A stretch of 64,000 nt of DNA from Bacteroidetes bacterium SW_9_63_38. Its GTDB lineage: Bacteria; Bacteroidota; Rhodothermia; Rhodothermales; Salinibacteraceae. The DNA is taken from assembly GCA_003022435.1 (NCBI GenBank), contig PXUA01000011.1:1-64000 (forward strand), read 5' to 3'. Numbering within the stretch: the first letter of the stretch is position 1; every line of letters begins with the position of its first letter. Shown one piece after another: positions 52,435 through 64,000 of the stretch. The translations under genes and the position numbers were made by a program. A model generated the notes under the pieces. The model made no database searches. It had not been told where the DNA came from and worked only from the letters and a program-made list of their open reading frames with translations.

Positions 52435-53442
52435 CTACTCCTCAACCGGTCCGGCGGTGTTGGACGTCGTCTCCACGCGTCGGGGATGTCGCTGCTCCTC
52501 GATCAGGCGCGTCCAGACCCGCTCGGCAAACTTTTCGAACGGCGCCTTCTGGTGCAGCCAACCGAAGTGGAGGACGTACGGCGTGAACTCGACGTACTCG
52601 CCCATGCGCGGCATCTGCTCAGCCAGCCCCAACAGTGTGTCGCGGAGGCGGGCATTCGGGAGGCCGCGGAGGCTGTAGACGAACGGGGAGGTGTAGAAGC
52701 GATAGGTGACCTCCGTGAAGGCCGAGTCGTGGTCGACGAGGGCGTCGATATAGTCGAGCTGCGGACTATTGCGCCCTTGCAGCCACGGAAAGACGTGCAG
52801 GCCGAGTTCGCTCATCGCCATCGCGAGGCTCCATTCACACGTTTCCTCGGAGCGGCCCTCTTCGAGACGACTCCGGAAGTGGGTGTCATCGGACTGCGCG
52901 AGAAAGTCGGCGGCACGGTCCACGACCTCCCGCGTCGTGGCGTCGTCCCGGGCGTAAATCATCCCCGCCTGCACCCGCGGTAGGTGCGTGAGGCCAAACC
53001 GGCAGAGCGTACGCTGCCGGCGGCGCAGAAGCACGTCGACGAGCACCCCAAGCCCTTTCGGCCCCCCAAAGAAATGATCGGCATTCTGGAGCCCTGTGGC
53101 CGTAAACGGAAACGCCGCGAACTGGTGCCAGAGCGGATCCGGATCGCGGCACCAGATCATGTCGGCGTCGACAAATAGGCTTCGGTCGAACGGCTTGAAC
53201 TGACCGAGGTGGTGTTTGAACCCGACGATCGACTGGTGCTCCGCGGGCAGCGCCTCGATCTCCTCAAAGACGGAGTCGAGCCGATTCTGCTCCAGGACCT
53301 CTCGATGCGATTCCGGACAGAACAAGGCCACGGGCCGGTCGGCATCGTGCCGACGCAGGGTGTGGACCGACGCCACAGCATGCTTGACGTAGCGGGGGGG
53401 GCCGTAGGTGTGGAGGACATAGCCCTCTTGCGGCGTCTCCAT
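52435..53442 (-). CDS. GT8-like glycosyltransferase
   Basis: 335 residues. VLHTYGPPRYVKHAVASVHT at the N-terminus and SLFVDADMIWCRDPDPLWH with the DAD metal motif fit a GT-A retaining transferase of the GT8/nucleotide-diphospho-sugar type. The C-terminal half (RVQAGMIYARDDATTREVV, TPYVLHFGWLHQKAPF) includes the late HxxW segment usual for substrate closure. The acceptor is unknown; the location at the edge of a surface-sulfation region suggests glycan work. Confidence 0.7.
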   Translation of the reverse strand: METPQEGYVLHTYGPPRYVKHAVASVHTLRRHDADRPVALFCPESHREVLEQNRLDSVFEEIEALPAEHQSIVGFKHHLGQFKPFDRSLFVDADMIWCRDPDPLWHQFAAFPFTATGLQNADHFFGGPKGLGVLVDVLLRRRQRTLCRFGLTHLPRVQAGMIYARDDATTREVVDRAADFLAQSDDTHFRSRLEEGRSEETCEWSLAMAMSELGLHVFPWLQGRNSPQLDYIDALVDHDSAFTEVTYRFYTSPFVYSLRGLPNARLRDTLLGLAEQMPRMGEYVEFTPYVLHFGWLHQKAPFEKFAERVWTRLIEEQRHPRRVETTSNTAGPVEE

Positions 53443-53620
53443 CGGGCGGGAAGGGTGATCGGTCGGACAGCGTGCTCCTTTCAAACCTGCAGATGCGCAA
53501 TTGGTCCGCACTCGTGGCTCCCCGATCAGGCGAGCGCCCGCGGCTCACGAGCCCCCGACGCAAGAAGATGTAAGTCAGCCCCTCGGCTCAGCCCGCCTTC
53601 ACCACGGGCCCACCTCTCAA

Positions 53621-54438: not shown

Positions 54439-54638
54439 TACTAATCCGTTCACGGGGGGGTAAACAGTTCTCTCCGTGTGAAGAGATCAGCCGGACTCGT
54501 CCGGCAAGATCTTGGGGATCTGAGATCCCCTGAATCCCAGATTGCTGGAAATCCTAGATTGCTGGGAATCTTAGATTCACGGGACCGTGTTGTGTTATCA
54601 GCAGAGATCGTGTTTGGACACCCACTCACGTATCAGTA
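54439..54638. repeat. R2 element, 200 bp, full length
   Basis: TACTAATCCGTTCACG at the left and CACGTATCAGTA at the right. The interior shows the palindrome GCCGGAC-TC-GTCCGGC (54490-54505), the hairpin GGGGATC-TGA-GATCCCC, and direct repeats GATTGCTGG-AATCCTA. This is the most complete uninterrupted copy in the window. Confidence 0.9.
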
Positions 54639-54751: not shown

Positions 54752-55783
54752 ATGCGAATCAGGGGTTGAGAGCGAGAAGGAGCATCGCAGCGGCGAGCCG
54801 ACCGAAGGCATGAACGAGAAGCCCCTGATAGGAGCGTACCTTCGAGGCCTTCTGAATGCCAGTTTTCTCGTTGATCCAGTTGAACAGGGACTCGATGCAG
54901 GCAAACTCGTTTGCCACTGGCGCATGCGGCTTACAGCCTTTTGGAGGTTCTCCTTCTGAGGGTATCTGCCGCGGAGAGCGTCTTCTGTCCTTTGTTCTTC
55001 TTGACCGGCGTTAGCAAATTGAGGTCTTGATCTTCGGCAAGCTGTTCTTTGAGGGGACCGTCACAGTAGGCCTTGTCTCCACAGAGAACTCCGCCCTCGA
55101 TGGTCGGCAAAACGCGTCGGGGGATTGCACACAATAGCCCCGAAGGTCGTTTTCGCTTCCCGGCGTCAGTCCGGCCTGCTGCAAAAGAGGGAGTGTCCCA
55201 CTTCTTTCCCAGGCGACAACGTGCAGCTCCACACCGTGAAAGAAGGTGTTTTTCGAGGAGCAATAGCCAACTGAGGCCAGCCGATCGGAGGCGACCATTG
55301 CCTGGGAGGCCCGCGGCCCCTCCGCGAGCATAATTGGCATTGAGTCGGCGATTCGGACCACCTCTTCTTGGGTCTTTCGGCAACTGATTTCGGAGAGGGC
55401 CTCCTGGACAAGGGGCGCAAAGACGGCGCTCAGCCGATTCAGGCGCCGATCGTAGCTTTGATATGAGGGGGGATCCGGGAACCAGTCCGAAAAGTGATCT
55501 TCCGCGTACTCGTGAATCTCGCTTGTGGGGGATCGCTTCTTGATCAGCCCAAACACATAAATGGTCAGCACCTCCTCGTCGGTAAAGTCCGGATCGGCGT
55601 TGTTGCTCTGCCGTTGCGCGGCCGCAGCGAGTCGTCCCCGGTATCGCTGGCAGATGAACAGGTAGATCCGAATAAGCGTAGAGGCAGCGTCCATGTCGCC
55701 AAGGGCGGCCCGTTAAAGATGTTGGACGCATCTTCTTTCAAGCCGCCTGCGGCGACGTGGTTTTTCAACCCCTGATTGGCATA
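54752..55783 (-). mobile_element. insertion sequence (about 1.03 kb) inserted into an R2 repeat
   Basis: The ends are an imperfect inverted repeat: ATGCGAATCAGGGGTTGA on the left and the reverse complement of ATGCCAATCAGGGGTTGA on the right. AATTC lies directly outside both ends (54747-54751 and 55784-55788) and looks like a 5-bp target duplication. Joining the flanks restores the R2 end TACTAATTCATGCACAGATA. One decayed DDE transposase gene is inside. Confidence 0.88.
54759..55694 (-). pseudogene. DDE-type transposase, IS982/IS4-like, frameshifted
   Basis: The first 180 codons, from MDAASTLIRIYLFICQRYRG, are intact: DEEVLTIYVFGLIKKRSP, SYDRRLNRLSAVFAPLV, RIADSMPIMLAEG (first catalytic aspartate) and FFHGVELHVVAWERSG. 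The frame then shifts twice. GVLCGDKAYCDGPLKEQL and later ANEFACIESLFNWINEKTGI then HAFGRLAAAMLLLALNP are in other frames, ending at 54759. The order is that of a roughly 310-residue DDE transposase. Non-functional as it stands. Confidence 0.85.
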
Positions 55784-56279
55784 ATTCATGCACAGATAGA
55801 TAAACTACATTCTCCGTCTGGAGATGGAGATCAGCCGGACTCGTCCGGCAAGATCCTGGGGATCTGAGATCCCCTGAATCCTAGATTGCTGGGAATCCTA
55901 GATTGCTGGGAATCCTAGATTCCCGGGACCGTGGATGCTCCCAGTCGGACTCGTCTTTTCCGATCTCAGATCGACTTAATCTGAGATCGGTGAAACCCCA
56001 CTTCCGTATCAGTGGAACGACTCAGGACTCTTCACGACACCAGCAAGACATGGGGAGAGGAGCACATTTCTTCACAGGCCGAACCCGGTCGACCTGATTT
56101 TTTCCTTCCCCCCGATTCTCGTTTTCCCCCCTCCCGACCTCAACATTCGCGCTCCTTTCAATCACGTAAGTTTCATTTTCTCTCGTCCGACTTTCCGAAT
56201 GCTCGGTGCTACCTTCACGTAGGTGTTAGTACCAATGCATGTCGTATCTCATATTAACAGTTACTCTTTTTGCCCTGGC

Positions 56280-56525
56280 ATGACGCAGCTTCTCCGATTA
56301 CTTCCCTGCCTCACTCTCCTGGCACTTACGTTTGCTATCAGCCCTGAGGTCGCACACGCGTACGGGGGCCCTGGGAGTGTAATTTCAGGAATCGGCACAT
56401 TTCTCGCTCTCGTTGCGGCCCTGCTCGCCTCTGTGTTTGGCTTCCTCTGGTTTCCGCTCAAGCGGCTCTACAAGAAGATGACCGGCGACGAGGAGGAGCA
56501 GCAGGAAACACCTGCCAGCCAATGA
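56280..56525 (+). CDS. small membrane protein of the sulfotransferase cluster (A)
   Basis: 81 residues. Leader MTQLLRLLPCLTLLALTF with cleavage near AHAYG, then AYGGPGSVISGIGTFLALVA, a second hydrophobic run to FLWFPLKRLYKKMTG and an acidic tail. The pattern of a Y-x-GPG start followed by a glycine-rich membrane segment and a basic end is one I recall from small proteins encoded beside sulfotransferase or alkaline-phosphatase-like genes; function unknown. Its stop overlaps the start of the next gene (ATGA at 56522), so they are translationally coupled. Confidence 0.75.
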   Translation: MTQLLRLLPCLTLLALTFAISPEVAHAYGGPGSVISGIGTFLALVAALLASVFGFLWFPLKRLYKKMTGDEEEQQETPASQ

Positions 56526-56905
56526 ACCTCCTTTTTGCCATGATTGTGGTGGTGGGATTTGCCGCCGTCCTCGAACTGTTGAATCTTCCCGCGCGTGCTC
56601 GGGATGCAGGACAACGCAGCCAAGACTGCCTCAGGGTACTGCAGAACGACTCGCTCACGGATTGTGAGAAGGAAGAAGCCCTGCAGTCTCAAACCAAGCA
56701 CCTGTTCCGATTGCTCGGCATTCTGGCAGGCGGAAGCCTGCTGGCACTCGGCGGTCCGCTCGGCGCCGTCTGGGGACTCAATCAGCTTGGTGTGGGAACC
56801 TTCTCGGGCGTCTTGGGCATACTGCAACGCATTGACTTTCTTGCGGGAACTGTAGTTGCCGGTACGATTGCGTACGCGCTCGTCTCCAGACGTCGGACGT
56901 CATGA
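56522..56905 (+). CDS. membrane protein of the sulfotransferase cluster (B)
   Basis: 127 residues with two to three hydrophobic segments: MNLLFAMIVVVGFAAVLELL, LFRLLGILAGGSLLALGGPL and the C-terminal FLAGTVVAGTIAYALV, with a charged helix between the first two (RARDAGQRSQDCLRVLQN). It overlaps cluster gene A by four bases and the sulfotransferase start by four bases (56902-56905). No known family can be named with certainty. The overlaps argue strongly for one mRNA and a shared function at the membrane. Confidence 0.75.
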   Translation: MNLLFAMIVVVGFAAVLELLNLPARARDAGQRSQDCLRVLQNDSLTDCEKEEALQSQTKHLFRLLGILAGGSLLALGGPLGAVWGLNQLGVGTFSGVLGILQRIDFLAGTVVAGTIAYALVSRRRTS

Positions 56906-57975
56906 ACTTTGAAGACCGTTACGGGACACTCGACCGTCTCCTTCATCGCATTGCCTTTAGCGCCGATACGGCCCAGCACGCCCTGGCCGACGTGGAAAAC
57001 ACGCTCTACGCGGACGAGCTGCCCCCGGTCGACGCTCCTGTGTTCATCACGTCCCTGCCTCGATCCGGCACCAGCATTCTCCTGCGGGTGCTGTGTGATA
57101 CCGGGCATTTCGCAAGCCATACGTACCGGGACATGCCGTTCATACTGTGCCCGATGCTCTGGAACCAGTTCTCAAATCGGTTCCACGCGGATGACACCGC
57201 CGAAGAACGAGCACACGGGGACGGCCTGGAGGTCTCGGCCGACAGCCCGGAAGCCTTCGAAGAGGTCGTCTGGAAACACTTCTGGCCGGAGCATTACCGC
57301 GATGATCACATCCGCCCCTGGACGTCGGAGAACCACGACGCAGAGTTCAATTCATTCTTCGAGACGCACATGCGAAAGGTGTGTGCGCTTCGTGAAGAAA
57401 ACGGCGAGCCCCGGCGCTACCTTTCGAAGAACAACCTCAACATCGCTCGCCTCGGAGCTCCCCCTGCTCCTTTGCAGCAGGGAACCGTCCTCATTCCGTT
57501 TCGGGATCCCGTTCAGCAGGCCGCCTCGATGTCCCGCCAGCACGAGCGGTTTTTGAAGATTCACGACGACGATGATTTTGTCCAGGAGTATATGGAGGCC
57601 ATCGGCCACCATGAGTTCGGGAAGGGGCTGCGCCCAGTCAATTTCGACAACTGGCTCGACGACGCGCCTCCGCCGAGCGAGTTTTCGTTCTGGGTCCAGT
57701 ATTGGACGACTGCTTACGAGCACGTGCTTGCCCACCAGCACGACAACATCGTCCTTCTCTCCTATGCCCACCTGACGGAAGAGCCGGACAATGCCCTCTC
57801 CGGGCTGGCCGAGATTGTCGAAGTCTCTGAAGATGACCTGCTTCCGCAGGCTGAACGTCTCCATCCCCCCCGCACTCACGAGGTCGGCACCTCTGCGGTA
57901 CCGGCAACACTACTGAAACGGGCCGATGACGTGTACGAGCGGCTCGAGCAGGCCGCCAACATTACCGATCCGTAG
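56902..57975 (+). CDS. PAPS-dependent sulfotransferase family protein
   Basis: 357 residues. The 5'-phosphosulfate loop is LPRSGTS at 52-58 (VFITSLPRSGTSILLRVL), and the 3'-phosphate side is IPFRDPVQQAASMSRQ with the usual Arg and Ser. The fold is cytosolic; the donor is PAPS and the acceptor unknown (carbohydrate, lipid or phenol). It is coupled to the two small membrane genes by overlaps. Its last codons (TDP) and its TAG stop lie inside a decayed R2 repeat, so the native C-terminus may have been altered by the insertion. Confidence 0.88.
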   Translation: MNFEDRYGTLDRLLHRIAFSADTAQHALADVENTLYADELPPVDAPVFITSLPRSGTSILLRVLCDTGHFASHTYRDMPFILCPMLWNQFSNRFHADDTAEERAHGDGLEVSADSPEAFEEVVWKHFWPEHYRDDHIRPWTSENHDAEFNSFFETHMRKVCALREENGEPRRYLSKNNLNIARLGAPPAPLQQGTVLIPFRDPVQQAASMSRQHERFLKIHDDDDFVQEYMEAIGHHEFGKGLRPVNFDNWLDDAPPPSEFSFWVQYWTTAYEHVLAHQHDNIVLLSYAHLTEEPDNALSGLAEIVEVSEDDLLPQAERLHPPRTHEVGTSAVPATLLKRADDVYERLEQAANITDP

Positions 57976-58088
57976 AAGCCACTTTCTCCACGAGTTTGGG
58001 GATCTGAGATCTCCTGAATCGCGTGCAGCCGTAGGCAGGAGGTCGAGGGTGCCAATCTCAGATCGGTGCAAACCTATTCGCGTCGTAA
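57963..58088. repeat. R2 relic overlapping the end of the sulfotransferase gene
   Basis: TACCGATCCGTAGAAG at the left, then CTTTCTCC, TTGGGGATCTGAGATC and, later, ATCTCAGATCGGTGCAAACC, all matching the interrupted R2 copy with deletions. The TAG of CCGTAG is the stop codon of the sulfotransferase gene. Confidence 0.7.
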
Positions 58089-58097
58089 GTTTACGAC
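58082..58097. promoter_or_regulatory. short perfect palindrome before propeller gene 1
   Basis: GTCGTAA-GT-TTACGAC, a 7-bp inverted repeat with a two-base centre, about 95 bases upstream of the first propeller gene. It has the form of a regulator binding site; it could equally be part of the decayed R2 end. Confidence 0.35.
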
Positions 58098-58192
58098 CGC
58101 GTAAAGAAGCCGCTCAACGTAGACACGATCGGAAAATCAGTTCACGAAACTGAGAGAAATACCACGTGGGTCCTTCTCCGAATCGTTCGTCC

Positions 58193-59539
58193 ATGCCCTC
58201 TTTTTCTCGATCCAAGGCTGTATTCTTGCTGTCGGGAGCGGTTCTGTTCTTCCTCATAGGATTCGGCTTTCGTGCAGGCCGCATTCCGCCGAATGACGCG
58301 TTGGAGCAAGCCTGGAAACAGGCAAAAAGCTTGATCAGCGAGCCTCACTTCTTGAATGATCAGGCCTACGACAGGGAAGGGGCCCAAACAGTCGGGTCGG
58401 GCGTTCAGCACTCCGGCCTTACCCTTCTCGTCTCCGTCTGGAAAACCGCTGGAAGTTGGGAACCCGGCATCAAACTTATCAACCAGCGTGGAGACACGAT
58501 CCATGCGTGGAGAATCCACCCTGAAGAACTGTTCCCAACCCTGCAGGAGAAGGGCCGAATTGGATACATTCACGGCACGCAACTGCTCCCCGATGGCGAT
58601 CTGGTTTTCAACATTGAACCGAGGATGGGGACCGCTCGCGTCGATGCCTGTGGAACCGTTCAATGGACAATCGCTGGGGGCAGCCATCATTCCGTCGGTC
58701 AGGCATCAGACGGCTCGTTCTGGATCTCAGACATCAGCTCTCATCCTCGCACCAAAAGCAAAGAGTTTCCAAATGGATACCCGGGACTGGACCATCCCGT
58801 ATATGTCGACAAAATCGCTCACGTCTCTAGTAGTGGGGATATAATAGAAAAAATTAACCTTCTTGACGTAATTTACGAAAACGATTTAGAAAAGCACATC
58901 AGCAAAGCATACATCTCAGCCGACGCGTCCGTCCCCACCGGCACGCTCCCGACCGAAGACATCACACATCTGAACGATGTCGAGCCACTTTCGGAGAATA
59001 TGGCCGACGAGTACCCTCAGTTTGAAACCGGGGATTTACTTATCTCCCTTCGCAACCTGCACTTGGTATTCGTCCTCGACCCCGATACCCAAACCGTGAA
59101 GTGGCATTCTTCCAAGCCATTTACCATGCAGCACGACCCAGACTTCATGGGCGACGGGTGGATTGGTGTGTTCGACAACAGAAGAGACTTTACGGAAACG
59201 GGCAACATGCTTGGAGGAAGTAGAATCGTCGCCGTCCAGCCCCAGTCCGATTCGCTGAAAAGTCTTTTTCCGACTTCGCTCTCAGATACGTTCTACACGG
59301 CCGTCGGAGGAAAGTGGCAACGACTCGACAACGGGAATCTCCTTTTGAACGAGTACACGGAAGGGCGCGTCGTCGAGGTGGCCCCAGATGGTCGTACGGT
59401 GTGGGAGTGGATCAAATCGCCCACGGATACCGGACAAGTTCCCTCCGTTCAAGAAGCCACCCGCTATGACCTGACGAAAGAGACGACTTCGTCGTGGCCG
59501 TGCGCGTCCGAAGAAACCGTTCGAAGCCCCTCTTCCTGA
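58193..59539 (+). CDS. arylsulfotransferase-type propeller protein, membrane-anchored (copy 1)
   Basis: 448 residues. One N-terminal membrane helix (VFLLSGAVLFFLIGFGF, 10-26) leaves the rest outside the cytoplasm. Histidines in positions conserved among the three copies are H127 (YIHGTQLLPDGD), H165/H166 (GGSHHSVG), H259 (ITHLNDVEP) and H314 (MQHDPDF), with blade text such as GWIGVFDNRRDFT and GRVVEVAPDGRTVWEW. This fits the arylsulfotransferase (ASST) propeller family, which moves sulfate between phenolic donors and acceptors through a histidine and without PAPS. The start at 58193 is preferred to the GTG at 58166. Confidence 0.82.
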   Translation: MPSFSRSKAVFLLSGAVLFFLIGFGFRAGRIPPNDALEQAWKQAKSLISEPHFLNDQAYDREGAQTVGSGVQHSGLTLLVSVWKTAGSWEPGIKLINQRGDTIHAWRIHPEELFPTLQEKGRIGYIHGTQLLPDGDLVFNIEPRMGTARVDACGTVQWTIAGGSHHSVGQASDGSFWISDISSHPRTKSKEFPNGYPGLDHPVYVDKIAHVSSSGDIIEKINLLDVIYENDLEKHISKAYISADASVPTGTLPTEDITHLNDVEPLSENMADEYPQFETGDLLISLRNLHLVFVLDPDTQTVKWHSSKPFTMQHDPDFMGDGWIGVFDNRRDFTETGNMLGGSRIVAVQPQSDSLKSLFPTSLSDTFYTAVGGKWQRLDNGNLLLNEYTEGRVVEVAPDGRTVWEWIKSPTDTGQVPSVQEATRYDLTKETTSSWPCASEETVRSPSS

Positions 59540-59694
59540 GCGATCGGTTCTTCCACAACAAAACGCAATCTGTCTACTCCCCTCCGGACCGGAGTCAGGC
59601 TCGTCGCGTGATCAATTCCTGTTGATTTCGGGCTGTGAAAGGGCAGGCGCCTCCTTTAGCGCTCTCGGTATGCTCTTTCTGAGTTACACAGCAG

Positions 59695-61035
59695 CTACCT
59701 GCTGGAGCTCATATCCGACGACGAGCAGGACCAAGAGGCAACCTCTTCGGGGGTCAGATCATATCGAGTCGCTTCAGTGACTTCCGGAACGTGATTCTCG
59801 TCGTACGGAGCGTGAACCCACTCCCAAACGGTTCGTCCCTCAGGCGTCACCTCAACAACCCTGCCCGCCTTGCTTTCCGTCAGGAGCATGTTCCCGTTTG
59901 CCAACTGCTGCCACTTTCCCATCGACCCCGTGTGGAACGGATCGGAATGCTTAGTGGGGAATCGCACCTCGACAGAGTCGGTGTGCGGCTGAATAGCAAC
60001 GATTCGACTCCTGCCCAACATCGCGCCTCGATCGGTGAAGTCGCTGGCGTTGTCGAAGATCCCAATCCATCCATTCCCGAGAAAGTCCGGATCATGCTGC
60101 AAAATGAACGGATCATCAGCATGCCACTTCACCCTCCGAGTCTCGGGATCAACAACGAAGACAAGACTGAGATTGCGGATCGACACCATAAGATCTCCCT
60201 CGTCGAACAAGGGATACTCATCCGCAAGGGACGCTCTCAGCGGCTCCACATCATTGACGTGCGTGAGATCTGTTGTTTGTAATCCGTCTTTATTCGCATG
60301 CGGCTGGAAGGCCTCGGCAATATGACGCTCTAGGCCATTGGCGTACAGTACGTCAAGTACGTTCAGACTGTCGAGAACTTTTCCATCCTCACTCACATTG
60401 AGAAGTGGCTCGTGATAAACAGGCTTCATCAAACCCGGCAATCCGTTCGGATGACCGGGACTTGTGCGACGCGGCTCTTGGCTGGATCCTGAAACCCAAA
60501 ACGACCCGTCTTCCGCCCGTTCAATCGAGTGGTGGCTACGCACCGGCAACCGCCACTGCGCGTCGCTGCAGGCCCCCAACCGCACGGTCCCAACCTGCCC
60601 AAAATTGACCAAGACATCTCCATTCGGAAGAAGATGCGACCCGTGAATGTTGCGGCGCCCGATTCGTCGATCGTCGAGGGAGTCCGGAAACAATTCTCGG
60701 GGATCAACCCGCCATCTGTGTGCAGTTTTTCCGTCCCGATCCATCAACCGAACTTCTGGTAGATATCCCTCTGGCCCCTCCCATTCAGAGGTTACGAGTG
60801 TCAATCCCGGCTGCATCTTATCCGGCTGTTCCTCTCGGACTCCCTGCCAGTCGTAGACTCGTGACGTTACAAAGCTCGGAGGACTAAACGCATACACTGC
60901 CTGCGCCTGATCCCCCGCTTGCACAAGAAGCTCATTGGGAAACCAGTCCCACGCTCTCACCACAAATCCGTAGAGGAATGCCAACACGATCAGGGAGGCA
61001 ACGAACGCAACTTTTTCGGGAGAGCGGGAGGCCAT
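59695..61035 (-). CDS. arylsulfotransferase-type propeller protein, membrane-anchored (copy 2)
   Basis: 446 residues, on the opposite strand to the other two. Membrane helix VAFVASLIVLAFLYGFVVRA, then IHGSHLLPNGD, VRSHHSIERAEDGSFW, LTHVNDVEPL, LQHDPDFLGNGWIGIFDNAS and GRVVEVTPEGRTVWEWVHAP, in the same order as copy 1. All four conserved histidine positions are kept, so it is probably active. The divergence between copies is substantial, so the duplication is not recent. It converges with copy 1 over 155 bases of non-coding DNA and diverges from copy 3 across a 487-base gap. Confidence 0.82.
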   Translation of the reverse strand: MASRSPEKVAFVASLIVLAFLYGFVVRAWDWFPNELLVQAGDQAQAVYAFSPPSFVTSRVYDWQGVREEQPDKMQPGLTLVTSEWEGPEGYLPEVRLMDRDGKTAHRWRVDPRELFPDSLDDRRIGRRNIHGSHLLPNGDVLVNFGQVGTVRLGACSDAQWRLPVRSHHSIERAEDGSFWVSGSSQEPRRTSPGHPNGLPGLMKPVYHEPLLNVSEDGKVLDSLNVLDVLYANGLERHIAEAFQPHANKDGLQTTDLTHVNDVEPLRASLADEYPLFDEGDLMVSIRNLSLVFVVDPETRRVKWHADDPFILQHDPDFLGNGWIGIFDNASDFTDRGAMLGRSRIVAIQPHTDSVEVRFPTKHSDPFHTGSMGKWQQLANGNMLLTESKAGRVVEVTPEGRTVWEWVHAPYDENHVPEVTEATRYDLTPEEVASWSCSSSDMSSSR

Positions 61036-61522
61036 TCTCGGCAGACAGTACTGATTCGAAGATTGAGGACCTTGTGGACGTGGCGTCACGGCGGCGATGT
61101 CTGCCGTCTGCATTTTTCGCAAACGGTAACAGGCCCCTCCCCCCCCTGTTCCGAAGCCTCTCCGATCTTCCACGGCAATTTTGTTCTTTCGTTTTCGAGA
61201 TCCCGAATTCTTTCCGGCCTACTTCTCTCTCCTACAGTCTTTCTGACCTGCCCAGCTCCTTTCAGAGCTTTCATCCCCATTGGACTTTCGGACCGGATAA
61301 CTTGGGATCAACTCCGCACTTGAACGTATAGAGATTCCCTCACCTAAAAAATAGGGGATGGGAGGAGCGTTCTCTGCCTTCGGGAGGATCGGATGCGCTT
61401 GTTATTGCCCTCCCGTCCCATTCCTCCGAGCCCCATTGAGTGGGACCGATCCTTCGAGGGCATGTGCATCATTCCACAATCGGCCAAGTCCCCCAAACGC
61501 TCACGACTACTGTACGTCTTTG
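61036..61522. other. divergent intergenic region between propeller copies 2 and 3
   Basis: 487 bases with T-rich stretches and no gene that I can support; the open frames that enter it are extensions of the two propeller genes without family similarity. It must contain promoters for both directions, but I cannot place a convincing Bacteroidetes-type -7/-33 pair. Confidence 0.5.
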
Positions 61523-62854
61523 ATGAAGTCTCTCTCCTGCGAGAAGGTCTGGGTATTCGCGTCCGTCATTCTCTTTGCATTCGGATACGGCTACATTGCG
61601 CACGCTTTCAACCTCTTCCCGAAGCCTTACATCGAGAGAGCCCTCAACCAGGCAACGGCCATCTCTACCGCTGTGCGCGATCTTCCCCCAAACTCTGATC
61701 CCGTGGCTTACAACCGGTCGGGTGCGCGAACGCCACTGCCCGACCGACGTCAACCCGGGTTGACCGCCGTGTCTTCTAACTGGCAGGATCTGGACTGGAA
61801 ACCGGCGGTGCGACTCCTGGACGTGAAGGGAAATGTGATCCATCAGTGGATCACTTCTCCCATCAAAATTTTCCCTTCGCTCTACGGTTCCTTCGGAAAA
61901 CTCCGACGGTTTCCACCCCCCTTCGGTTTCCACCTCTATCCGAATGGGGATCTGTTGGTAAATGCACACGACGTAGGTCTCGCTCGGCTGGACGCCTGTG
62001 GAACGGTTCGATGGCGCCTCTTTCAACCGGACACGCACCATTCCGGAAGTCCGGGACGAAACGGAAGTTTCTGGCTTCCAGGGGGGCGCATCGAAAAGAT
62101 CTCATTCCCCGGTCTTGAGGGATTCAAGGTCGACCACGACCTCATCGTACGGGTGTCCAAACGAGGAGAAGTAACGCAGAAAATAAGCCTGCTCGACATA
62201 CTACACAAAAATGACCTTCAGGACCGGATATTTCGGACAAATTCGGGAGGGTTGTCAGATGGGGATTTGACACATCTGAACGATGTTGAGAGGCTTCCTG
62301 GCTCATTAGCGTCCGAATATCCCGGATTTGAGGCCGGGGACCTTCTGCTCTCTCTTCGAGAAATCCACTCCGTTCTCGTACTGGATCCGGATACGAGGAA
62401 CGTGAAATGGATCGAATCCGACTCCTTCATCCGCCAGCACGACCCCGACTTCATCGGCAACGGATGGATCGGTGTTTTTGATAACCACTGGGATGGCACC
62501 CTTCGGGGCCGTGCCCTCGGCGGCAGCCGCGTCGTCGCCGTCCATCCACAGCTCGATTCGACGCGCGTCCTGTTTCCCACCCCGCTCTCGGACACATTGT
62601 ATTCGATTACCGCGGGTCGTTGGCAACAGCTGACCAACGGCAACATGCTACTGACGGAGTCGCGAGCCGGTCGGGTCGCTGAATTTACCAAGTCGGGACG
62701 ACTCGTATGGGAATGGATTCATGCCCCCCACCACTCTCTCGTCTCGGAAGTGTACGGCGCCGAGCGCGTCGACGCGACAAAAGCCCAGGTGGAAAAGTGG
62801 AACTGCTCAAATGATACAAATCCTGCGAACTCATCTTCTTCGGAGAAGGAGTGA
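61523..62854 (+). CDS. arylsulfotransferase-type propeller protein, membrane-anchored (copy 3)
   Basis: 443 residues. Membrane helix VWVFASVILFAFGYGYIAHA, then FGFHLYPNGDLLVNAHDVG, DTHHSGSPGRNGSFWLPG, LTHLNDVERL, IRQHDPDFIGNGWIGVFDNH and GRVAEFTKSGRLVWEW. The four histidine positions of copies 1 and 2 are all present. The loop between the HH block and the LTHLNDVE block is shorter than in copy 1, so the substrate face may differ. The start MKSLSCEKVW is placed just before the helix. A GT4 gene follows 272 bases later on the same strand. Confidence 0.82.
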   Translation: MKSLSCEKVWVFASVILFAFGYGYIAHAFNLFPKPYIERALNQATAISTAVRDLPPNSDPVAYNRSGARTPLPDRRQPGLTAVSSNWQDLDWKPAVRLLDVKGNVIHQWITSPIKIFPSLYGSFGKLRRFPPPFGFHLYPNGDLLVNAHDVGLARLDACGTVRWRLFQPDTHHSGSPGRNGSFWLPGGRIEKISFPGLEGFKVDHDLIVRVSKRGEVTQKISLLDILHKNDLQDRIFRTNSGGLSDGDLTHLNDVERLPGSLASEYPGFEAGDLLLSLREIHSVLVLDPDTRNVKWIESDSFIRQHDPDFIGNGWIGVFDNHWDGTLRGRALGGSRVVAVHPQLDSTRVLFPTPLSDTLYSITAGRWQQLTNGNMLLTESRAGRVAEFTKSGRLVWEWIHAPHHSLVSEVYGAERVDATKAQVEKWNCSNDTNPANSSSSEKE

Positions 62855-63126: not shown

Positions 63127-64000
63127 ATGCGTCTGCTGGTCATCACTCAAGACTTTTCCCCCGCCGTTGGAGGCATCGAAACCTATACGACAGAGCTGGT
63201 CCATCGCTGGGCCCGACAAGCCGAACATGTGGAAGTTGTTGCTCCGAACCTCCCTGAGGCCGGATCCGTCGACGCACAGTTGCCATTCCCCGTCACACGC
63301 GCCGCAACGCGGCCCGACCTCCTCCCCGTCCTGGGCCTTCCCACCATTGTTCGTCGCGTCCGGACCCTGCAGCCCGACGTTACCTTCCATGCTCAGTGGC
63401 AGACGGTGGGAGCAGCGGTACTCGCTCGACGCCTCACGGGCGCTCCCCAACGCATCGTGTGTGCGGCACACGGCCGTGAGCTGCTTTTCAATCCTGCTGA
63501 CGGCATGCCCGGCCTCCAGTCGACCTACGACGCACTCCGTCGCCTTCTTCTACGCGGGCCGGATCGGTTTACGCCAGTCAGCCGCTACACCGCCGGTCTG
63601 CTTCACGAGTGCGGCGTTCCCCCGTCTCGCTGCCACGTCGTTCCCAACGGGACCGATCCCGACCACTACCGCCCTTTTGACGCATCGCCCCTCGGCAAAT
63701 CCCTCGGCCTCGCCGACGGCTCTGTCCTGTTGACGGTTGGCCGTCTCGTTCCGCGGAAAGGCATCGACACCACGCTCCACGCCCTACCGGCCGTGCTCGA
63801 CGCTGTGCCCGACCTCACGTACCTCGTCGTCGGCACTGGACCGGACCGGGACCGGCTGGAGAGGCTGGCCACCGACCTCGGGATTCGCTCGTGCGTCCGC
63901 TTCGCCGGATACGTCGACGCCGACGATCTGCCTACCTACTACAACCTCGCGGACGCCTTCGTGATGCCATCTCGCGAGGCTCCCCCCGACGTGGAGGGAT
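63127..64000 (+). CDS. family 4 glycosyltransferase, truncated by window end
   Basis: The frame is open from 63127 to the window end (291 codons). It opens MRLLVITQDFSPAVGGIETY, the classic GT4 start, with AAHGRELLF, VVPNGTDPDHYRPF, LTVGRLVPRKGIDTTLHALP and AGYVDADDLPTYYNLADAFV, so both GT-B lobes are visible. The C-terminal EX7E catalytic helix begins at SREAPPDVEG and lies across the edge. It transfers a sugar from an NDP donor to a growing glycan. Its place after the propeller genes suggests that it builds the polymer or lipid that is sulfated. Confidence 0.88.
   Translation, partial: MRLLVITQDFSPAVGGIETYTTELVHRWARQAEHVEVVAPNLPEAGSVDAQLPFPVTRAATRPDLLPVLGLPTIVRRVRTLQPDVTFHAQWQTVGAAVLARRLTGAPQRIVCAAHGRELLFNPADGMPGLQSTYDALRRLLLRGPDRFTPVSRYTAGLLHECGVPPSRCHVVPNGTDPDHYRPFDASPLGKSLGLADGSVLLTVGRLVPRKGIDTTLHALPAVLDAVPDLTYLVVGTGPDRDRLERLATDLGIRSCVRFAGYVDADDLPTYYNLADAFVMPSREAPPDVEG

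Follow-up and report, generated by a model that had tools for sequence, protein, structure and literature searches.

Introduction

A two-step sulfation of caprazamycins by the enzymes Cpz8 and Cpz4 of Streptomyces was reportedly described by Tang et al. in 2013. Cpz8 makes phenolic sulfates from 3′-phosphoadenosine 5′-phosphosulfate (PAPS) and Cpz4 then uses them (PMC4257720). Here we analyze a comparable set of genes in the first 64,000 nucleotides of a contig (PXUA01000011.1; C11:1-64000 in our numbering) of Bacteroidetes bacterium SW_9_63_38, a stretch referred to below as the window. The source genome (G000), which probably belongs to Salinibacter (the genus referred to below), is 2.84 Mb in size and 84% complete. 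The set comprises two small membrane-protein genes (A and B), a gene for a PAPS-type sulfotransferase (ST) and genes for propeller proteins (P; P1 to P3 in the window) that resemble arylsulfate sulfotransferases (ASSTs). We consider it reasonably probable that A, B-ST and P together constitute a self-contained relay for envelope sulfation, in which a membrane-held ST makes an aryl-sulfate donor and outward-facing propellers spend this donor on envelope acceptors.

The cassette resembles the Cpz8/Cpz4 pair in that both enzyme types co-occur and the predicted route runs from a PAPS sulfotransferase through a phenolic sulfate to a PAPS-independent ASST. Moreover, Cpz4, the second caprazamycin sulfation enzyme, is the nearest solved structure to P1. 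The Cpz system differs in that it serves antibiotic biosynthesis and has a type III polyketide synthase (PKS) that makes the carrier, whereas in the cassette ST appears to be membrane-integrated via B, A is conserved, the propellers are predicted to be membrane-anchored and the genes occur in many bacterial groups. An earlier note on this DNA, which proposed a two-stage surface sulfation system, did not mention this precedent for the relay chemistry.

ASSTs use aromatic sulfate donors, and the residues given for the E. coli enzyme are His252, His356, Asn358, Arg374 and His436, as stated in a 2026 review (PMC13426309). The periplasmic ASST of E. coli CFT073 (3ELQ/3ETS/3ETT) shares with P1 the propeller fold and a set of His, His-x-Asn, Arg and His residues. 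The E. coli enzyme has an N-terminal beta-sandwich according to the same review (PMC13426309), in contrast to the N-terminal helix found here. Its gene, asst, lies in an operon associated with disulfide-bond formation (PMC10932419), whereas the propellers here belong to a P/A/B/ST cassette. For ST, the Sulfotransfer_3 relatives TPST1/2 and mycobacterial Stf1/Stf9 are similar in domain, PAPS loop and fold or profile matches. ST is set apart from the solved members of this family by its N-terminal membrane domain of three predicted helices, which may also be a separate partner (B), and by its association with A and propellers.

A literature search, with thin coverage of subscription papers and bioRxiv preprints, did not find the P/A/B/ST membrane cassette. 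Two-step sulfation by a PAPS enzyme and then an ASST is already known, and its membrane-based, widely spread version appears to be new. The 2026 review describes most bacterial ASSTs as having unidentified natural acceptors and poorly understood physiological roles (PMC13426309). If the relay is real, the sulfate source of an ASST would be a donor made by the same cell at its inner membrane. Cells that keep PAPS inside would then have a way to add sulfate to exported glycans or lipids at their surface, in Salinibacter, Ruegeria and cyanobacteria alike.

Co-occurrence of propellers, A and ST

Scanning a contig collection (genome_contigs; 84,980 species by its description) with the propeller alignment alone returned 42 loci. 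They span many bacterial groups, and five of them belong to genomes of the genus set described below. A single ST sequence used as query against the same collection found nothing. Propeller, A and ST were present together in 17 of the 42 fetched stretches, or 15 of 37 outside the genus (L060, L061, L066, L070, L073, L074, L076-L079, L089, L090, L092, L093, L098-L100). These loci include Gamma- and Alphaproteobacteria, cyanobacteria (Okeania, Leptothoe), KSB1, Desulfobacteraceae, Omnitrophica, a Bacteroidetes metagenome-assembled genome (MAG) and Vibrio. B was matched in 16 of them, at a lenient E <=0.5, L076 being the exception. In 13 of the 17 loci P and A are co-oriented, with P immediately preceding A; an opposite-strand open reading frame (ORF) lies between the two in L073, P follows ST in L074 and L099, and P is divergent in L079. 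A Pirellulales genome has the block on a different contig (L169).

Co-occurrence was also evident at the level of whole genomes. Using an ST profile (E 1e-20) and an A profile (E 1e-3), we searched 34 non-genus genomes that had been picked by their propellers alone, and ST and A were each found in 31. The ST profile holds sequences from 15 of these 34 genomes and the A profile from 16. Nineteen of the genomes, none of which contributed to the ST profile, lack ST in the propeller stretch, and 16 of these 19 have it elsewhere. The earlier note had set co-occurrence of the two sulfotransferase types outside this strain as the test of its proposal, and they do occur together. In 29 of the 31 ST genomes A and ST share a strand and A precedes ST by no more than 1.1 kb, and in one A follows ST at a distance of 97 bases; ST is single-copy in 30 and present twice in one. 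A locus from a gammaproteobacterial MAG (L063/L184) has propeller, A and B, and ST was not found in the genome search.

Similar results were obtained within one family. Among 149 genomes of the Ruegeria atlantica family, two of which were known carriers (G336, G351), P was found in 12, ST in 11 and A in 12, and all 11 ST genomes had both P and A (Fisher test for P and ST, known carriers included, 8.7e-16). One genome (G474) has a weak A match with neither ST nor P, and the propeller of G457 is weaker and partial. ST is single in 10 of the 11 carriers, the other (G409) having a full copy plus a 90-residue piece, and propeller matches number 1 to 5 per carrier with fragments counted. A mirror-tree comparison of ST with the neighboring P gave a moderate correlation (r 0.42, 23 loci), and none of 5000 permutations was as high.

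We also compared neighboring genes by all-against-all BLASTP of ORFs of at least 90 aa, taking 3 stretches from the genus and 16 from outside it. Leaving aside P, A, B and ST, clusters that cross groups were each found in no more than 3 of the 19 stretches. Since no other gene cluster widely joins the groups, the cassette looks self-contained.

Within the genus, 13 genomes were available, G000 included. Propellers and B are present in the same nine (G000, G002-G004, G006, G007, G009-G011), and ST is found in eight of these nine, the exception being G011 (83% complete), and not in the four remaining genomes. Carriers have 1 to 4 propeller matches each, fragments counted, and a single ST in all eight. 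Where the block is intact its usual order is P-A-B-ST (L045, L047, L050, L051, L052); G003 has lost the propeller and most of A next to B-ST, and G006 has its propellers on contigs other than that of A-B-ST. The coupled A-B-ST unit of the earlier note holds: ATGA overlaps join A to B (56522-56525) and B to ST (56902-56905), and four-base overlaps recur in genus relatives, at the B/ST junction in 7 of 7 and at the A/B junction in all 6 relatives retaining A and B. Because the overlaps recur in the genus and the block is kept in other bacterial groups, this layout is more than chance. Across 296 genomes of the phylum, a B profile built from one genus matched this genus only (4 genomes). Forty-seven non-genus relatives gave no ST or B match and three weak propeller matches (1.9e-5 to 5.5e-4 in two, 3.1e-7 in one).

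The sulfotransferase and its predicted membrane domain

ST matches Sulfotransfer_3 (PF13469) in Pfam at 1.4e-9 (39 bits, cut-off 27), which bears out its previous assignment as a PAPS-type enzyme from the LPRSGTS loop. Within this loop, R54 and G56 are kept in 18 of 18 members of the ST family alignment. A wider ST profile compared with solved structures matched protein-tyrosine sulfotransferases best (1.5e-9), followed by Stf1 (1.1e-7); the genus-only ST profile found no relative there. PAPS supply is represented by an adenosine 5′-phosphosulfate kinase gene (G000:C3:84471-84920), which is present in all 13 genus genomes whether or not they have the cassette.

B had been viewed as a separate protein that moves or presents the sulfate carrier. 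Our analyses point elsewhere, since B and ST share a common frame in 17 genomes: nine loci with one open frame of 480-506 codons (L066, L070, L089, L090, L092, L093, L098-L100) and eight with frames of 487-535 codons measured from stop to stop, starts unchecked (L163, L169, L172, L175, L176, L178-L180). From these frames we take B to be the membrane domain of ST. In a model of the fused protein of L093 (predicted local distance difference test score, pLDDT, 85.4; 9 sequences), long helices precede a domain with a sulfotransferase fold, and its closest matches in a fold search were the PAPS sulfotransferases Stf9 and Stf1 and tyrosylprotein sulfotransferases. The positive-inside rule relates positive charges to membrane orientation. 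Applied to the hydropathy and positive charges of B, it suggests three helices with the C-terminus, and hence ST, in the cytosol.

Neither A nor B has a Pfam match above cut-off or an NCBIfam match, and among 18 B members compared with Pfam none scored better than 0.035. A role for B as an ExbB-like proton channel was considered from a weak Pfam match (0.062) and rejected, since the other 17 members were unmatched and B is in frame with ST elsewhere. A second variant of the cassette (L155, L157-L161, L166, L171) has, where B would stand, a longer membrane protein of some 240-280 codons. Four of these eight proteins were scanned; they gave no Pfam match above cut-off and none matched an Oxa1/EMC3-like family. 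The idea, taken from helix order, that B or the longer variant is of that kind was dropped. In G356 the gap between A and ST is just 124 bases.

Family and active-site residues of the propellers

P1 to P3 match PF14269 with 100-115 bits (cut-off 27); for PF05935, P2 and P3 lie above the cut-off and P1 below it. A model of P1 (pLDDT 86.5, built with 21 sequences) was searched with Foldseek. The top two matches were Cpz4 (9kf6, 3.1e-13; 9kf4) and the next four were E. coli ASST (3ett, 2.0e-11; 3ets; 3elq), ahead of other propellers. For these six best solved matches the template-modelling (TM) scores were 0.45-0.58 and the identity was 10-18%.

Four histidines had been noted as conserved in the three propellers. 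Conservation was confirmed, with the number being five: H113, H174, H175, H268 and H323 (P1 numbering) are invariant in 13 aligned genus propellers. In a set of 21 propellers from many groups, H174, H175, H268, N270 and H323 are invariant and R296 is present in 20. P3 lacks H136 and keeps H174, H175, H268, N270, R296 and H323. R296 and H323 stand opposite an R and an H of Cpz4 in a hidden Markov model (HMM) alignment, while H174/H175, H268 and T395 were matched to E. coli ASST by their order and the HxN spacing, not by residue alignment. By profile, fold and a catalytic His, His-x-Asn, Arg, His set, the propellers are assigned to the ASST family and are predicted to transfer sulfuryl groups. 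The ASST-type histidines expected from the first reading of the window are thus kept, as is the fold.

Each of P1, P2 and P3 has one predicted N-terminal hydrophobic helix. Two cysteine positions are shared by all 13 genus propellers but are not invariant in the wider set. Broken propeller copies are common in the genus and include a remnant, an in-frame stop and a split frame (G003, G006, G007, G010; L023, L025, L013/L022, L018). ST in the genus is a single copy with no internal stop. It is as if turnover were quicker among the acceptor enzymes than for the loader ST.

Protein A

A has a signal-peptide-like N-terminus with the junction AHA-YGGPG, one more membrane helix and a charged tail. 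The motif YxxPG was found in all 57 A strings, which contain 48 distinct 35-residue cores, a few strings being the same gene cut differently. This invariance is partly selection, since the A profile was built from such sequences. Of 52 strings, 51 have A and one has G just before the motif tyrosine, and position -3 is A, V, G, L or S. Cleavage by signal peptidase I follows an AxA rule. Because AxA-like residues precede the tyrosine, this peptidase would leave it as the first residue of A on the outside. A is accordingly pictured as a small protein with a signal peptide and one helix that possibly gates or presents the donor. Comparison of A relatives with Pfam gave DUF6223 as the best match in 5 of 21 members (4.6e-4), which is unconvincing.

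An A paralogue in G393 (L183:2500-2700) is a small membrane protein whose motif reads YIDPG in place of YIGPG, and L183 has no ST match. Cassette genomes also have five more weak A-profile matches (3.6e-6 to 5.7e-5), on other contigs. There are hints here of a wider family of signal-peptide YxxPG proteins.

Proposed relay and alternative explanations

The family of ST, the topology of B and the B-ST fusion lead us to propose a first step in which B holds the PAPS-dependent ST at the inner face of the cytoplasmic membrane, where ST would sulfate a membrane-soluble aromatic carrier. The aryl sulfate would then get to the outer face, possibly gated or presented by A. There, outward propellers anchored by one N-terminal helix may receive the sulfuryl group on a histidine (H323 of P1, within QHDPDF) before handing it on to acceptors in the envelope; fold and active-site residues were tested for this step, and we infer the activity from them. 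A single charging enzyme could supply several propellers that differ in acceptor, and one loader with several spenders would be in line with the copy numbers. Of the two-stage sulfation suggested in the earlier note, co-occurrence and the ASST fold and residues support the core, whereas the role given to B and the membership of a GT4 glycosyltransferase do not stand; the phenol or quinone carrier and the glycan or lipid acceptors named there are putative.

The acceptors in Salinibacter are probably surface glycans or glycolipids. In published work, S. ruber M8 and M31 differ in sulfotransferase-rich regions and in sulfonated, mainly extracellular metabolites (PMC3669384), and variable regions of Salinibacter are rich in sulfotransferase and glycosyltransferase genes, again with differing sulfonated, mainly extracellular metabolites (PMC3669384, PMC6060240). 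These observations fit surface acceptors. The cassette had no further gene accompanying it in our comparisons, so the carrier is probably a common metabolite or A itself. A quinone is speculation: a literature search on sulfated menaquinone and a membrane-bound sulfotransferase gave nothing relevant. Type III PKS, the source of the Cpz donor, was considered as carrier source and rejected as a cassette signature, since in the genus it is found with and without the cassette and is thus not tied to it.

Several points weigh against the relay. The activities in it are predicted, and linkage alone does not establish that the product of ST is the donor of P. No carrier-making gene was recognized in the cassette. 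Type III PKS occurs in 11 of 13 genus genomes, the four without the cassette among them, and a genus-wide search did not find it in G000 (84% complete) or G002. Among the propeller genomes outside the genus, G345 has ST with no A match, G352 and G364 have neither, and G334 has A and B with no ST; within the genus, G011 has a propeller and B with no ST, and no A beside B. Single absences carry little weight, as many of the genomes are incomplete MAGs. R296 is replaced by K in 2 of 13 genus propellers and in 1 of the 21 in the wider set, and position 395 is N in P1, with T in 20 of 21.

The two enzymes could instead carry out independent sulfations, with ST (and B) acting on a cytoplasmic envelope lipid or glycan precursor and the propellers using environmental aryl sulfates outside, the two being linked only through the same surface. 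Sulfotransfer_3 enzymes act on a wide range of substrates, and in Salinibacter the cassette has glycosyltransferases and a Wzi-like capsule gene in its vicinity, both of which suit this explanation. It is nevertheless rather unlikely in our view: co-occurrence of P, ST and A is near-strict even when the genes are not adjacent, one ST is found per several propellers, and the neighbor comparison left P, A, B and ST as the only genes shared by more than 3 of 19 stretches. A more basic objection is that the propellers are binding or structural proteins and not transferases. Propeller folds are versatile, and the low identity to solved relatives would permit this, yet Cpz4 and E. coli ASST head the structural matches, the active-site residues are invariant or nearly so across groups, and two of them fall on the R and H of Cpz4. 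We regard this possibility as very remote.

The relay would take a different form if A were itself the sulfate carrier, its invariant tyrosine at the predicted mature N-terminus being O-sulfated by B-ST and the sulfate donated to a propeller. The tyrosine is present in 48 of 48 distinct cores with A or G before it, protein-tyrosine sulfotransferases are the best solved relatives of the wider ST profile, and ASSTs accept tyrosine-containing peptides according to the 2026 review (PMC13426309). An exported tyrosine would, however, sit on the PAPS-free side, and A would be usable once only. The tyrosine sulfotransferase match may just mirror which superfamily relatives are solved, given the Stf1 match and the empty result of the genus-only profile, and A was found by a profile that already contained the motif. 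This mechanism is therefore improbable. Its extension to a general envelope sulfate-export system, in which the sulfated N-terminal tyrosine of A is a protein-borne aryl-sulfate donor for several outward ASST propellers, is slightly more improbable again.

Gene layout of the region

Features of the cassette and its surroundings are listed in Table 1. The three propellers were originally placed together after ST. All three match Arylsulfotran_2, but P2 is on the opposite strand, so they do not form a single operon, and a fourth propeller lies past the window. The true start of P3 is probably the ATG at 61523, where similarity to P1 begins.

Table 1. Coordinates of the sulfation genes and nearby features (window positions unless marked as contig positions).
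Feature	Position	Strand	Basis
Gene A, 81 aa	56280..56525	+	ORF calls, family alignments
Gene B, 127 aa, three predicted membrane helices, putative split ST membrane domain	56522..56905	+	
ST, 357 aa, PAPS-type sulfotransferase (Sulfotransfer_3), loop LPRSGTS	56902..57975	+	
P1, 457 aa, predicted membrane-anchored ASST-like propeller	58166..59539	+	Arylsulfotran_2 1.6e-31
P2, 492 aa ORF, ASST-like propeller	59695..61173	-	Arylsulfotran_2 5.1e-33
P3, 498 aa ORF, ASST-like propeller	61358..62854	+	Arylsulfotran_2 2.3e-28
GT4 glycosyltransferase	63127..64000, past window edge, end at contig 64299	+	Pfam
Fourth propeller	contig 76973-78301, 13 kb past window		

The GT4 gene, previously counted as part of the system, belongs to the genus context and is outside the conserved cassette. 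Among nine genus stretches (L045-L053), relatives of GT4 occur in six, of a DUF3047 gene in six and of a glycosyltransferase-like gene (52435-53511) in seven. Past the window there are a further GT4-like gene and a Wzi-type capsule assembly gene, and the fourth propeller is neighbored by MlaC and outer-membrane efflux genes.

An ORF resembling an IS982 transposase (55011-55694, minus strand) lies 5′ of the cassette; it scored 63 bits, under the 130-bit cut-off. A 17-base unit is present in three tandem copies at 55876-55926. Palindromic elements of the GGGATCTGAGATC type flank the cassette (54515-54529, 55859-55873 and 57999-58011), and a search on both strands with at most one mismatch gave 5 matches against 0.19 expected. 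These elements are perhaps a dispersed intergenic repeat.

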